The notes under the pieces were generated by a model. It did not search any database. It was not told the origin of the DNA and worked only from the letters and a program-made list of their open reading frames with translations. Below, piece after piece: positions 41,176 to 46,812 of a stretch of 64,000 bases of DNA. The position numbers and the translations under genes are program-made. Within the stretch, counting starts at the first letter, position 1. Every line of letters starts with the position of its first letter. Source of the stretch: Pseudobacteriovorax antillogorgiicola (GTDB lineage: Bacteria; Bdellovibrionota_B; Oligoflexia; Oligoflexales; Oligoflexaceae); assembly GCF_900177345.1 (NCBI RefSeq), contig NZ_FWZT01000030.1, forward strand, positions 1 to 64,000, written 5' to 3'.

Positions 41176-41532
41176 ATGATCGCACCAATCACTCGCCGTG
41201 GCGTTATCAAAATGGGTGTCATGAGCAGTTTTCTGTCAGGAACCCGTTGGGCTTTTGGTAATAACTCACTGCGGGAAGGGCAAGCTCGATCTCATGATGC
41301 AATCACGCAGGCCGAGCTAGATTTCTTGCACAAGATGATCCAAGTGCTTAGCCCCGAGTTTTATGGCAACACCTCCTATCACGACTTGCAGGATCACATC
41401 ATTGTCTTAGATAGGCTCTTATGGGAACTTTTTCCTGATTTCCATTCAGAGTTACGTCAGGGGCTGAGCTTTCTCACCTCGCGCAGCCTGACCTTCGCAA
41501 CTCTAAGCAGCGTCTACTCGCCTTCAGCGTAG
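41176..41532 (+). CDS. Short Tat-signal protein, possibly a truncated gluconate 2-dehydrogenase subunit 3
   Basis: 118 residues. The N-terminus has a twin-arginine signal (TRRGVIKMG). The middle (QAELDFLHKMIQVLSPEFYG, DRLLWELFPDFHSELRQGL) resembles the start of the gluconate 2-dehydrogenase subunit 3 family, which is normally about 180 residues and lies next to a GMC oxidoreductase gene. No such gene is present. After RQGL the frame turns into a Ser/Thr-rich tail. The reading frame shifted by two bases from 41463 instead encodes a helical, protein-like continuation (LAQPDLRNSKQRLLAFSVEE). A frameshift and decay are likely. Confidence 0.45.
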   Translation: MIAPITRRGVIKMGVMSSFLSGTRWAFGNNSLREGQARSHDAITQAELDFLHKMIQVLSPEFYGNTSYHDLQDHIIVLDRLLWELFPDFHSELRQGLSFLTSRSLTFATLSSVYSPSA

Positions 41533-42059: not shown

Positions 42060-42224
42060 CCCAATCTTTGTATCAAGCTAGCCAATGAAGTCTTCGTTCG
42101 TAATTAAATCTCATTGATTGTAGTGCCTTGCATCTCCGTACAGCGTCTTTTTAGCTAATCCTCTGCAATCATTAAAGGACTCGTCATTGCTTCCGAAAAT
42201 ACCCATAGATCGATGAGGGTGTTG

Positions 42225-44057
42225 ATGGCGTTGAAGAACTTTCAAAAGAAGATGATCCAAGAATCATATGCCAAGATTCGCAAGATAGATGGAACCCATC
42301 CCTTTAAGGAGTCTGTCCACGGCAGTTTTGTCAGCTATCGAGTTCGCTATCGTGGCCGCGGACGTATCAGCTACTTCAACTTTCCACTGGCGAAAGAGAT
42401 GGGCTTGATCTCCAGTGATCATCCCCACGTTATGAGTCGATCCCTCGAATCGGCGCTCCTAGATACGTTTAGTATTCAGATTATCAATGAATACGATATG
42501 ACTCATGGAACGAAGATCGACCCTAATGATGTCAAACCAAACCAGTACATGGCGACCCGGTATCTACAACTTCAGCACCCAAGTAAAATTGGCATAACAT
42601 CTGGTGACGGGCGTAGCATCTGGAACGGTGTTGTTCGCCACCGAGGTAAAGTCTGGGATGTTTCCTCCTGTGGTACTGGAGCTACGTGCCTTTCACCGGC
42701 AACTGCAATTAACAATAAGTATTTTAGGACCGGCGATCCTGCAGTCAGTTATGGCTGTGGCCATTCCACAGTATCGGAAGGCTTGGTTGACGTCCTTTTT
42801 AGCGAGATACTTACAAAGAATCGGATCGATACGGAACGGGTTTTGTGTGTCATCGCCTATCCCAAGGGCTTAGGGACCACAGTTCGTGTTGGTAAGAATT
42901 TGCTCAGGCCATCTCACTTCTTCAATCACCTTAAACAGGGGCAATATCTAAGGCTAAAGGATGTGGCAGACTACTATATTCAAAGGCAGGTTCAAAACGG
43001 TGACTGGAAAATACCCAAGGGTCAAAATCAATACCTTTACCTTAGGGATCGCATGGTCGAGACCTTTGCTGATATCGCAGCTAAGTTTGAAGCCCATTAT
43101 ATCTTTTGTTGGCTTGACTGGGATGGCGACAATGTACTCGCCGACGGCGGTATTATAGATTTCGGCTCGGTCAGGCAGTTCGGCCTTTACTATCATGAAT
43201 ATAAGTTTGATGATGCAGAGCGCTGGTCGACGAATATCAAGGAACAACGAGGTAAAGCACGCTATACGGTTCAGACGTTCATCCAGCTTGTGGATTATCT
43301 GATAAGTGGTAAGCGAAAGCCGATCCACTCGTTTCGCAACCATCGATCCTTGAAACGGTTCGATCGACTTCTCGAATGGCGGCTTAAGGAAGAACTGCTT
43401 TGGAAAGTGGGTTTCAACGAGCCTCAGATCAAGTTTCTCATGGGATTTGCCAACAAGCACGTTGATCAGTTACTAAAATCCCATAGCTATCTGGAACAGA
43501 TAAAATCTCGCGAGGGGGTTCATCAGGTAGCTGATGGTCAGAATTGCAATATTCTCAGCAACACCCGCAAGTTGCTACTTGAGCTGCCGGGTGCTATGGT
43601 CGATTTAGAGCCTCTCGATCAGCAAGCCTTTCTGAAGATTCTTGGGTCTCATCACAGCCAGTATGAGAGCTTTCCTAAAACCAGAGCCTTGCGGCAGCAT
43701 ATTCAGAAGTTTCAAAAATCCTACATTAAGCTTGTCCAGAAAACTTCAGACAATCAGGGGCGGTCCTCGGCCATCATACTAGCAAATCTTCGTCAGCGGG
43801 CTCAGCAGATCAACCACCCAGAGCGGATTACCGGTGATTCGTTGTGTCTGGTGGTCGAGGAAATCTTGAAAAAGCGTAGCTCTTTTAGCTTTGAGCAGCT
43901 AGAGCAGCTGATCCTTCATTTTGTAAACGAGCAAATTCTCAATCCCGACTTCAAACCTAGTAAGGCATGGCGTGAAGCTGTTCGGCCACCCATATTTTCT
44001 CGGCGCTTTTATCGGCGCATCCTCAAGCTTGTTTCAGATTATCGAGAAGGTTTATGA
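42225..44057 (+). CDS. Divergent SelO-like (UPF0061) pseudokinase-fold protein
   Basis: 610 residues. GAGGG five bases ahead supports the ATG at 42225; an ATG four codons earlier has no site. Parts resemble SelO, the kinase-fold protein that transfers AMP to hydroxyl side chains: SGDGRSIWNGVVRHRGKVWD (about 126-145), a following GCGHSTVSEGLVDVLFSE helix, VRVGKNLLRPSHFFNHL, then the metal site DWDGDNVLADGGIIDFG (about 300-314). In SelO the matching segment reads xMNTDNMSxxGxTIDYG, so the Asn and the D(F/Y)G Asp are kept. The C-terminal half is alpha-helical and unlike anything I know. It is the first gene of a coupled trio. Confidence 0.65.
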   Translation: MALKNFQKKMIQESYAKIRKIDGTHPFKESVHGSFVSYRVRYRGRGRISYFNFPLAKEMGLISSDHPHVMSRSLESALLDTFSIQIINEYDMTHGTKIDPNDVKPNQYMATRYLQLQHPSKIGITSGDGRSIWNGVVRHRGKVWDVSSCGTGATCLSPATAINNKYFRTGDPAVSYGCGHSTVSEGLVDVLFSEILTKNRIDTERVLCVIAYPKGLGTTVRVGKNLLRPSHFFNHLKQGQYLRLKDVADYYIQRQVQNGDWKIPKGQNQYLYLRDRMVETFADIAAKFEAHYIFCWLDWDGDNVLADGGIIDFGSVRQFGLYYHEYKFDDAERWSTNIKEQRGKARYTVQTFIQLVDYLISGKRKPIHSFRNHRSLKRFDRLLEWRLKEELLWKVGFNEPQIKFLMGFANKHVDQLLKSHSYLEQIKSREGVHQVADGQNCNILSNTRKLLLELPGAMVDLEPLDQQAFLKILGSHHSQYESFPKTRALRQHIQKFQKSYIKLVQKTSDNQGRSSAIILANLRQRAQQINHPERITGDSLCLVVEEILKKRSSFSFEQLEQLILHFVNEQILNPDFKPSKAWREAVRPPIFSRRFYRRILKLVSDYREGL

Positions 44058-44725
44058 TGAGGTTATGGATGTTCAGCTCTGGTGAAGCTGAAGACAACGA
44101 GGATATGGATGAAGACCTATTCCATGAGATCGATCGAAAGCGGCCACAAATCACATTTATCCCTGCTCATCAGGATGATGCCTTGATATGCTACGACGAA
44201 TTTATTGAGCGGTTCGCACACTACGACTATATTAAATTTCGGATGCTGGATTTAGAATCCCCAGTGACGCAAAAGGAGCTACGAAAAACATTGCAGTCGG
44301 ACCTGATTTATCTCTCTGGTGGTAATACCTTCCACTTTCTTAAGTATCTTCGCAGTTCAGGCTTTATTAACGAACTGCGATATTATGCTAAGTCAGGTGG
44401 TTTGATAGCTGGCCATAGCGCTGGTGCGATTTTGATGACTCCGCACATTCGAACGGCGAGCTTTCCCTATTTTGACCGAGACGAAAATGAGGTAGGTATT
44501 AAGAATTTCATAGCCATGAGGCTTGTTAAGTTTGAGTTTTTTCCTCATTACGTGAATAATATTCGATATTCAGATGCCCTAGTCATGGCATCGAAAAAGT
44601 GCCATTGGCCTATTTATGCAGCCGCTGATGGAGGCGGTGTCGCGATCACTGATAAGGGGCTGCGAGTTTATGGTAAGGTTTGGGCCTTTTTTCAGGGCAA
44701 AAAATTCAAGATTGGATTTCGATGA
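44054..44725 (+). CDS. Peptidase S51 (dipeptidase E/cyanophycinase-like)
   Basis: 223 residues with the class-I-amidotransferase-like fold of S51 peptidases. The nucleophile serine is in GHSAGAILMTP, preceded by LIYLSGGNTFHFLKYL. PepE of E. coli (about 230 residues) cleaves Asp-X dipeptides; cyanophycinase cleaves aspartyl-arginine polymers. Which substrate applies here is unknown. The start overlaps the SelO-like stop by four bases and its own stop overlaps the next start, so translation is coupled. Confidence 0.85.
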   Translation: MMRLWMFSSGEAEDNEDMDEDLFHEIDRKRPQITFIPAHQDDALICYDEFIERFAHYDYIKFRMLDLESPVTQKELRKTLQSDLIYLSGGNTFHFLKYLRSSGFINELRYYAKSGGLIAGHSAGAILMTPHIRTASFPYFDRDENEVGIKNFIAMRLVKFEFFPHYVNNIRYSDALVMASKKCHWPIYAAADGGGVAITDKGLRVYGKVWAFFQGKKFKIGFR

Positions 44726-45213
44726 AGAGCTTACGCAAACAATATGAAGCATTGATGTCTCACCCCCGGACATTTAAGACTCTTTTGAGTCTTTGGCCGC
44801 CGTTTCTTTTTTCAGGAATTCGTGTGGCAGAGGTAGAGCGCGATTACCGCTATATTCGAATCGAACTTAAGTCTTATCCTTTCAATCGGAATCATTTTGG
44901 AGTGCACTTTGGTGGCTCATTATTCGCCATGTTAGACCCTTTCTATATGTTTATGGTGCTTCATAATTTGGGGCCAAAATACTACGTATGGGACAAAAGT
45001 GGTGAGATCGAGTTTGTGAAACCTGGGCGAGGCACTGTTACGGCTCATCTGCAGGTCGATCAGGGAATGATCGATCTAATCAAATCGGAAACCGGAGCAG
45101 GAGATAAATACCTTCCTGAGTTCTCTTGTGAGGTATGGGATGAGCAGGATGAAGTCGTTGCGATTTACAAGAAAGTACTCTACGTGCGTCTCAAGCCAGA
45201 GCATCGCAGTTGA
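44722..45213 (+). CDS. DUF4442-type hotdog-fold (thioesterase-like) protein
   Basis: 163 residues; ATG overlaps the S51 stop (ATGA). The layout (NHFGVHFGGSLFAMLDPFYMFMVLHNL then GEIEFVKPGRGTVTAHLQV) fits the DUF4442 branch of hotdog-fold acyl-CoA thioesterase-like proteins. These are short, soluble and cytoplasmic. It closes the operon with the SelO-like and S51 genes, an unusual combination. The likely substrate is an acyl thioester, but the family has little experimental annotation that I know of. Confidence 0.7.
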   Translation: MKSLRKQYEALMSHPRTFKTLLSLWPPFLFSGIRVAEVERDYRYIRIELKSYPFNRNHFGVHFGGSLFAMLDPFYMFMVLHNLGPKYYVWDKSGEIEFVKPGRGTVTAHLQVDQGMIDLIKSETGAGDKYLPEFSCEVWDEQDEVVAIYKKVLYVRLKPEHRS

Positions 45214-46264: not shown

Positions 46265-46687
46265 CTACATGTTTCTTGCGTGCTCATAGAAGGCATTCAT
46301 CATCCGCGGTAGGCTGACAGAAACAAGCTTACTTGTGATTGCCTTTGGAGCAAACACTTTTAAGGCTACATCCACACTATAGGTGACCTTGCACTTGTCC
46401 CCAAGATCCTCGATGAGCCACTCGCCCGAGTTTTTCTTAAACAGGCTGCCAGCGTGTAGATCCCACGCCACCCGCCGAGGTCTATCATGAGTCATCTTCA
46501 GGGTATAGGAGATTTTTTTCACGATGTGGATATTATATTGAATCTTCGCCTGATGTTCGTCCTTTTCTAGAACGTCTATACTATCGACTTCAGACAAGAT
46601 CTTGGGATAGTGCTCGTAATCGAGAAGTGCGTTGTAAAATTGCTTTGCTGGTATGTCAAAAGTCTCTTCTCGTGTTGCCCCTGCCAC
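46265..46687 (-). CDS. START/SRPBCC (RatA-like) protein
   Basis: 140 residues from a GTG preceded by AAGGAG at a 6-base spacing; the frame continues to an ATG at 46762 but has no site there and would run through a terminator. The fold signs are the coenzyme Q-binding/RatA pattern: FDIPAKQFYNALLDYEHYPKILSEVDSIDVLEK and the end LPRMMNAFYEHARNM. Members bind hydrophobic ligands or quinones, or affect ribosome assembly. It lies behind the secreted protein at 46813 with a terminator between them. Confidence 0.7.
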   Translation of the reverse strand: MAGATREETFDIPAKQFYNALLDYEHYPKILSEVDSIDVLEKDEHQAKIQYNIHIVKKISYTLKMTHDRPRRVAWDLHAGSLFKKNSGEWLIEDLGDKCKVTYSVDVALKVFAPKAITSKLVSVSLPRMMNAFYEHARNM

Positions 46688-46715
46688 GGAAAACTCCTTA
46701 ATAATAATAGAAAAA

Positions 46716-46740
46716 GGCTGCTTGATCCAAACAAGCAGCC
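46716..46740 (-). terminator. Intrinsic terminator
   Basis: On the minus strand GGCTGCTTG and CAAGCAGCC form a perfect 9-base stem with a 7-base loop, then TTTTTCTATT. It ends the transcript of the secreted protein at 46813-47544 and separates it from the START-like gene. Confidence 0.8.
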
Positions 46741-46812
46741 GATACTGTAATCTCTTGCTCAATAAGCGTCAATGGCTCGTTAAAACTAAGTTCAGCTAAT
46801 TTGTCAGTTCAT

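Follow-up and report, generated by a model that had tools for sequence, protein, structure and literature searches.

Genes at the locus

We analysed a 64,000-nucleotide stretch of Pseudobacteriovorax antillogorgiicola (contig NZ_FWZT01000030.1, positions 1 to 64,000), called the window below. The locus of interest holds three open reading frames on the forward strand.

42213-44057, + strand: SelO-like ORF, 614 aa from the ATG at 42213 or 610 aa from the ATG at 42225
44054-44725, + strand: S51 serine peptidase ORF, PepE/cyanophycinase-like, 223 aa (PF03575, E=1.9e-26)
44722-45213, + strand: DUF4442 hotdog ORF, 163 aa (PF14539, E=1e-17)

The alternative SelO-like start at 42225 is at least as good as the first, with GAGGG immediately 5' of it. 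ATGA stop/start overlaps are found at both the SelO-like/S51 and the S51/DUF4442 junctions, in agreement with the translational coupling that a sequence-only reading of this DNA had proposed for the window. A canonical SelO is encoded on another contig of the same genome (405 bits, E=5.7e-121).

A divergent branch of the SelO superfamily

The SelO-like protein matched the Pfam SelO model PF02696 with E=5.7e-7 and 29.1 bits. The gathering cut-off is 22.8, and the other family members found in relatives also passed it, except for one truncated copy (G042). The NCBIfam YdiU and SelO models scored far under their cut-offs (38.3 bits vs 431 and 19.5 vs 850, respectively). A phmmer search of the PDB with the single protein gave no match, so profile and fold methods were needed to recognize the SelO relation. 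An AlphaFold2 model built from 53 homologues reached pLDDT 92 and pTM 0.91. When this model was compared with the PDB by Foldseek, the only significant matches (E < 0.001) were nine SelO/YdiU chains, with E values of about 1e-11 to 3e-12 and TM scores of 0.65-0.71 by target length over 579-596 columns. HHalign of the SelO-like family against canonical SelO proteins of relatives gave a probability of 98.6% (E=1.3e-15, 425 columns). The Pfam, AlphaFold and Foldseek results bear out the sequence-only reading's view of a very divergent SelO-family member with a kinase fold, and the structural comparison that it had suggested recovered the full SelO fold over nearly the whole length. That reading was mistaken in describing the C-terminal 300 or so residues as unlike SelO. 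Because the Foldseek alignments cover so many columns, and the HHalign alignment extends to residue 582-588, the C-terminal half is SelO-like too, insertions aside.

We counted residue conservation over 91 SelO-like sequences. The pseudokinase SelO transfers AMP; its Lys113 and Glu136 bind the gamma-phosphate, Arg176 and Arg183 bind phosphate, and Asn253 and the DFG Asp262 belong to the metal site (PMC8097203). The corresponding features in the window's protein are as follows.

42669..42671, + strand: C153, aligned with Lys113 of P. syringae SelO by HHalign and MAFFT
42885..42908, + strand: R225 to R232 (VRxxxxLLRPSHF), equivalent to the phosphate-binding Arg176/Arg183 of SelO
43110..43133, + strand: WLDWDGDN, residues 300-307, equivalent of the catalytic loop
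43158..43160, + strand: D316, equivalent of the DFG Asp (Asp262 of SelO)

The Lys113/Glu136 pair is absent from the SelO-like family. Position 153 is Cys in 80/91 sequences and otherwise Arg, Ser, Gly or Ala, never Lys, while position 193, which corresponds to the alpha-C Glu136 of P. syringae SelO, is variable (T, S, A, D, G and others). Upstream of residue 241 the family has no Lys that reaches 90% conservation, so the loss of the Lys holds however the sequences are aligned in detail. The rest of the site is kept: R225, R232, D304, D306, N307 (the metal Asn253 of SelO) and D316 are invariant in 91/91 sequences. The metal-site Asn and DFG Asp had been picked out in the sequence-only reading, and both hold across the family. 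Such invariance is not expected of a dead protein. Retention of the metal site and of both Arg residues speaks for an active enzyme that uses nucleotides, and loss of the Lys/Glu pair for a chemistry that has changed relative to SelO.

These residues bear on two more conventional functions. The protein could be an ordinary SelO-type protein AMPylase with other substrates, S51 degrading the AMPylated target or being regulated by it. Its full SelO fold and its equivalents of Arg176/Arg183, Asn253 and Asp262 are what such an enzyme would have, but the Lys113 and Glu136 equivalents are gone, and since the same genome carries a canonical SelO, the role of the SelO-like protein must differ; we therefore consider this reading rather unlikely. 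AMP transfer, which the sequence-only reading had assumed, is not a given once this pair is lost. A true phosphotransferase, which would have regained an Asp at the HRD position and transfer the gamma-phosphate, is improbable. It would account for D302, five residues before the Asn, being Asp in 85/91 sequences with the kinase-like DxxxxN spacing. Against it, five sequences have Ala at 302; these form the f8/g10 clade and retain the S51 partner, there is no conserved Lys, and the Arg pair associated with flipped ATP is kept.

The SelO-like family can also be set against the known branches of the superfamily. It shares with the SelO/YdiU AMPylases (PF02696; 6EAC, 6K20, 6III) a nearly full-length fold, the Arg pair, the metal Asn, the DFG Asp and a GDGR motif. 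It differs from them in the missing Lys/Glu pair, in having WLDWDGDN where SelO has HGVMNTDN, in insertions in the N-lobe and around residues 412-450, and in the adjoining S51 gene and the coexistence with a canonical SelO. The microcin maturation proteins MchC and MceJ are a distant SelO branch (PMC3281104) and are needed for siderophore attachment to the microcin C-terminus (PMC3281104, PMC6776366). We aligned E. coli Nissle MchC with five plasmid homologues; this six-protein alignment was required because a single-sequence comparison was uninformative. In three-way HHalign comparisons, the SelO-like family matched canonical SelO (98.2%, E=5e-14) and MchC (97.1%, E=6e-11, 460 columns) more closely than canonical SelO matched MchC (95.6%, E=1e-8). 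By profile comparison, the SelO-like family is therefore a third branch of the SelO superfamily, intermediate between canonical SelO and MchC/MceJ. We do not place it in the SelO AMPylase equivalog, because the Lys/Glu feature is absent and the NCBIfam scores fall far below cut-off.

Individual motifs show the relation to MchC as well. An N-I-x-M-D-G metal segment preceding D-[FY] is found in MchC/MceJ and in the SelO-like family, and an RP[SA]HF motif is common to the family and MchC, where the canonical SelO of the same genome has RFGNFE. MchC differs in retaining the Lys, in a QVKG motif. MchC loci also contain an MchD-type (HlyC-type) acyltransferase, an exporter and a microcin gene, none of which recurs beside SelO-like loci. 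The E. coli Nissle MchC itself (NZ_CP022686 4627907-4629457, L159) carries the annotation 'hypothetical protein' and does not match the Pfam SelO model; profile comparison assigns it to the SelO superfamily. One relative of the window's genome (G001) has four SelO-type genes (contigs C78, C133, C70 and C94), of which one belongs to the new branch and the other three are canonical-like.

The S51 peptidase and its inheritance with the SelO-like gene

An AlphaFold model of the S51 protein (pLDDT 96.5) matched peptidase E best in Foldseek (2.3e-14), followed by cyanophycinase. The residues expected of a serine peptidase are listed below.

44417..44419, + strand: S122, nucleophile in GxSAGA, invariant (43/43), aligned to PepE Ser120
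44546..44548, + strand: H165, catalytic His, invariant, aligned to PepE His157
44627..44629, + strand: D192, candidate third triad residue, Asp in 42/43, 27 residues after the His

The protein resembles the S51 enzymes peptidase E and cyanophycinase (3L4E, 1FY2, 3EN0) in its fold, with TM scores to peptidase E of 0.71-0.79 when normalized by query length, and in the GxSAGA Ser and the His of a PH motif. It differs from peptidase E at the acid: PepE Asp135 aligns to a gap, leaving D141, D143 and D192 as candidates. The acid of cyanophycinase sits 27 residues past the catalytic His, the spacing of the conserved D192. The S51 enzyme is probably active. A further difference from both relatives is genomic, in that the window-type S51 is always accompanied by a SelO-branch gene, either next to it or elsewhere in the genome; among the genomes searched, this type was never found without one.

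The two genes are inherited together. Among Bacteriovoracia, the class of Halobacteriovorax, which includes predatory bacteria, the SelO-like gene occurs in 104/129 species genomes. The S51 partner is present in 98 of these 104 and in none of the 25 genomes that lack the SelO-like gene. It is adjacent in 96 genomes, 53 of them with the ATGA overlap. The Fisher value for this co-occurrence (2e-21) ignores relatedness, and a fairer figure is the roughly three changes of S51 presence on the SelO-like tree. In the window's order, an adjacent S51 gene (scoring at least 250 bits) was found in 11/13 genomes with the SelO-like gene and S51 in 0/39 without it. Across 80 loci on GTDB contigs, S51 is present in 67: directly downstream on the same strand in 65, mostly with the ATGA overlap, head to head in L089, and sharing one ORF in L086. 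Two of the 13 GTDB loci without S51 stop at a contig edge. The distances between SelO-like proteins and those between their S51 partners correlate with r=0.87. No S51 neighbour was found at 22 canonical SelO loci within roughly 1.5 kb on each side. The shared ORF at L086 (2507-4528; also G078:C137) encodes 673 aa comprising SelO-like residues 8-508 and the C-terminal half of S51; it may be a genuine gene fusion, or it may result from a deletion or from faulty assembly.

Adjacency could in principle reflect inherited gene order with no joint function, and wider neighbours of the pair (PilT, DUF454, CmoB) are indeed syntenic within genera. This explanation is very improbable given that S51 adjoins the SelO-like gene in 36 of 44 clades (<65% identity), against at most 11 for any other neighbour, that both genes are absent together from 25 genomes, and that the head-to-head pair in L089 is an independent arrangement in one lineage. 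We conclude that the SelO-like and S51 genes very probably form one unit.

The association runs in one direction. Partner-type S51 is missing from several genomes that carry the SelO-like gene (G002, G123, G124, G125, G136 and G171), and from the tested Gammaproteobacteria, Acidobacteriota, Myxococcota and Scalindua members that carry it. Many of the genomes surveyed are MAGs, so that missing sequence may account for a few of the absences (G094, L040 and L078 end at contig edges). Since lineages keep the SelO-like gene without partner-type S51, its product can function in the absence of S51. The reverse was never seen, and S51 therefore looks dependent on the SelO-like product. This suggests that S51 would act downstream of the SelO-like protein, an order that co-inheritance does not itself establish. 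The same pattern bears on whether the SelO-like protein is a non-catalytic regulator, serving as a nucleotide-sensing scaffold or as an activator of the peptidase. Loss of the phosphate-binding Lys and Glu and the tight coupling to the S51 gene would suit such a pseudoenzyme. We regard it as unlikely, however, because the metal ligands, the loop Asp and both Arg are invariant (91/91) and the protein is kept in lineages that lack its supposed target.

The DUF4442 hotdog gene is a local, lineage-specific addition outside the conserved unit. The window and G001 (L105), which are sisters in the tree (support 91/69), are the only two places where it adjoins the pair. DUF4442 homologues occur in 24/52 relatives, many of them without the SelO-like gene, and in G002 the homologue lies away from it. 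Our survey of gene neighbourhoods thus upheld only part of the trio that the sequence-only reading had described: the SelO-like/S51 pair is conserved across Bdellovibrionota, and DUF4442 is not part of it, so the survey does not support placing acyl hydrolysis in a single unit with the other two activities. For the pair, a kinase fold and conservation in other genomes were both found, the two points on which that reading had staked its proposal.

An immunity function for the pair is also unlikely. Searches by tblastn against plasmids and phages gave no match and PADLOC gave no defence-family match, and the SelO-like gene is near-core throughout an entire class, vertically stable and inherited with its S51 gene. 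The evidence points to a normal chromosomal trait instead of the immunity-type pathway that had been suggested. As a general system, a three-enzyme pathway of AMP transfer, peptide cleavage and acyl hydrolysis was refuted, the hotdog gene being unlinked elsewhere. Although ATGA overlaps join all three genes in the window and the trio recurs in G001, a three-enzyme immunity-type pathway is extremely improbable given that unlinked gene, the empty defence, plasmid and phage searches and the spread of the SelO-like gene through its class.

Other genes recur near the pair, and we take them to be PilT, DUF454, CmoA/CmoB, an SrkA-like kinase and a DsbA-like protein. We did not count them as partners because each recurs in at most 11/44 clades. 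In 11/44 clades (L018, L021, L045, L068, L092 and others), a gene for a DUF454/YbaN-like membrane protein is located no more than 2.5 kb away; it is convergent in Bacteriovoracia and on the same strand in Acidobacteriota, which are without S51. Downstream of the pair, on the opposite strand, CmoB/CmoA-like genes are seen in 7-9 clades (in L018, L046, L052, L068, L073 and L083, presumably CmoB and CmoA of tRNA wobble uridine modification), an adjacency that may be old synteny. Small conserved ORFs beside the pair, sought as possible peptide substrates, formed groups only among close relatives, and these were mostly ORFs that apparently overlap neighbouring genes. The surroundings of the pair revealed neither a substrate nor a precursor peptide, and no third partner.

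Closer to the window, in the sister locus L105 (3643-5755), the pair is preceded by genes for a TAT-leader protein of 178 aa and for what is probably a GMC oxidoreductase. At the corresponding place in the window (41176-41532) there is only a TAT-leader ORF of 118 aa, and tblastn of the L105 oxidoreductase against the window gave no match. A polyketide-cyclase/START-like gene downstream (46265-46762, - strand) is syntenic with G001 and G002, which indicates that the genes surrounding the pair have long been together within the window's family.

A possible two-enzyme modification pathway

We propose that the pair would constitute a two-gene, chromosomal, cytosolic pathway. The SelO-like protein would most likely bind Mg-ATP in the flipped manner of SelO, though with the Lys/Glu pair gone and no conserved Lys upstream of residue 241, ATP may not bind in SelO fashion, or at all. 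Its AMP chemistry could consist of adenylyl transfer or, as is expected of MceJ/MchC, of forming a carboxylate adenylate and then ligating it; the target of modification would be a peptide, a protein or a small acid. S51 would then act on the product, either stripping the added group or trimming the modified peptide. Among the readings considered, we tentatively favour an ATP-dependent SelO-branch transferase or ligase whose product S51 hydrolyses or trims, while giving it somewhat less than an even chance.

ATP-dependent transfer or ligation is favoured by the retained metal site and Arg residues, by the lost Lys/Glu pair, and by the precedents of MchC/MceJ and SidJ, from which it is seen that proteins with a kinase fold can attach groups to proteins at the expense of ATP. 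SidJ, a pseudokinase glutamylase, is similar by analogy: a kinase fold whose AMP chemistry joins an amino acid to a protein (PMC8548325). It differs in that we found no sequence relation, and it is absent among the significant Foldseek matches of the SelO-like model. A more specific form, to which we assign a low probability, is reversible peptide or amino-acid ligation, in which the SelO-branch protein as writer would activate a carboxylate with ATP and form an (iso)peptide or ester bond that S51 would erase. If true, such a writer/eraser couple would have no described counterpart for SelO.

Targeted searches of open-licence papers found no description of the SelO-like/S51 pair. One study of SelO neighbourhoods does not mention S51 in its main text (PMC10364804), and the available portion of another does not describe a pair with S51 (PMC3281104). 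Our results point to a previously undescribed two-enzyme modification pathway. MchC, a ligation factor, is a second bacterial branch of the superfamily with a known role, and a third branch lying between SelO and MchC in profile space could show how the fold shifts between transferring AMP and ligating. Its missing Lys/Glu pair poses a well-defined question for biochemistry, and through the constant S51 partner the product becomes directly accessible to genetics.
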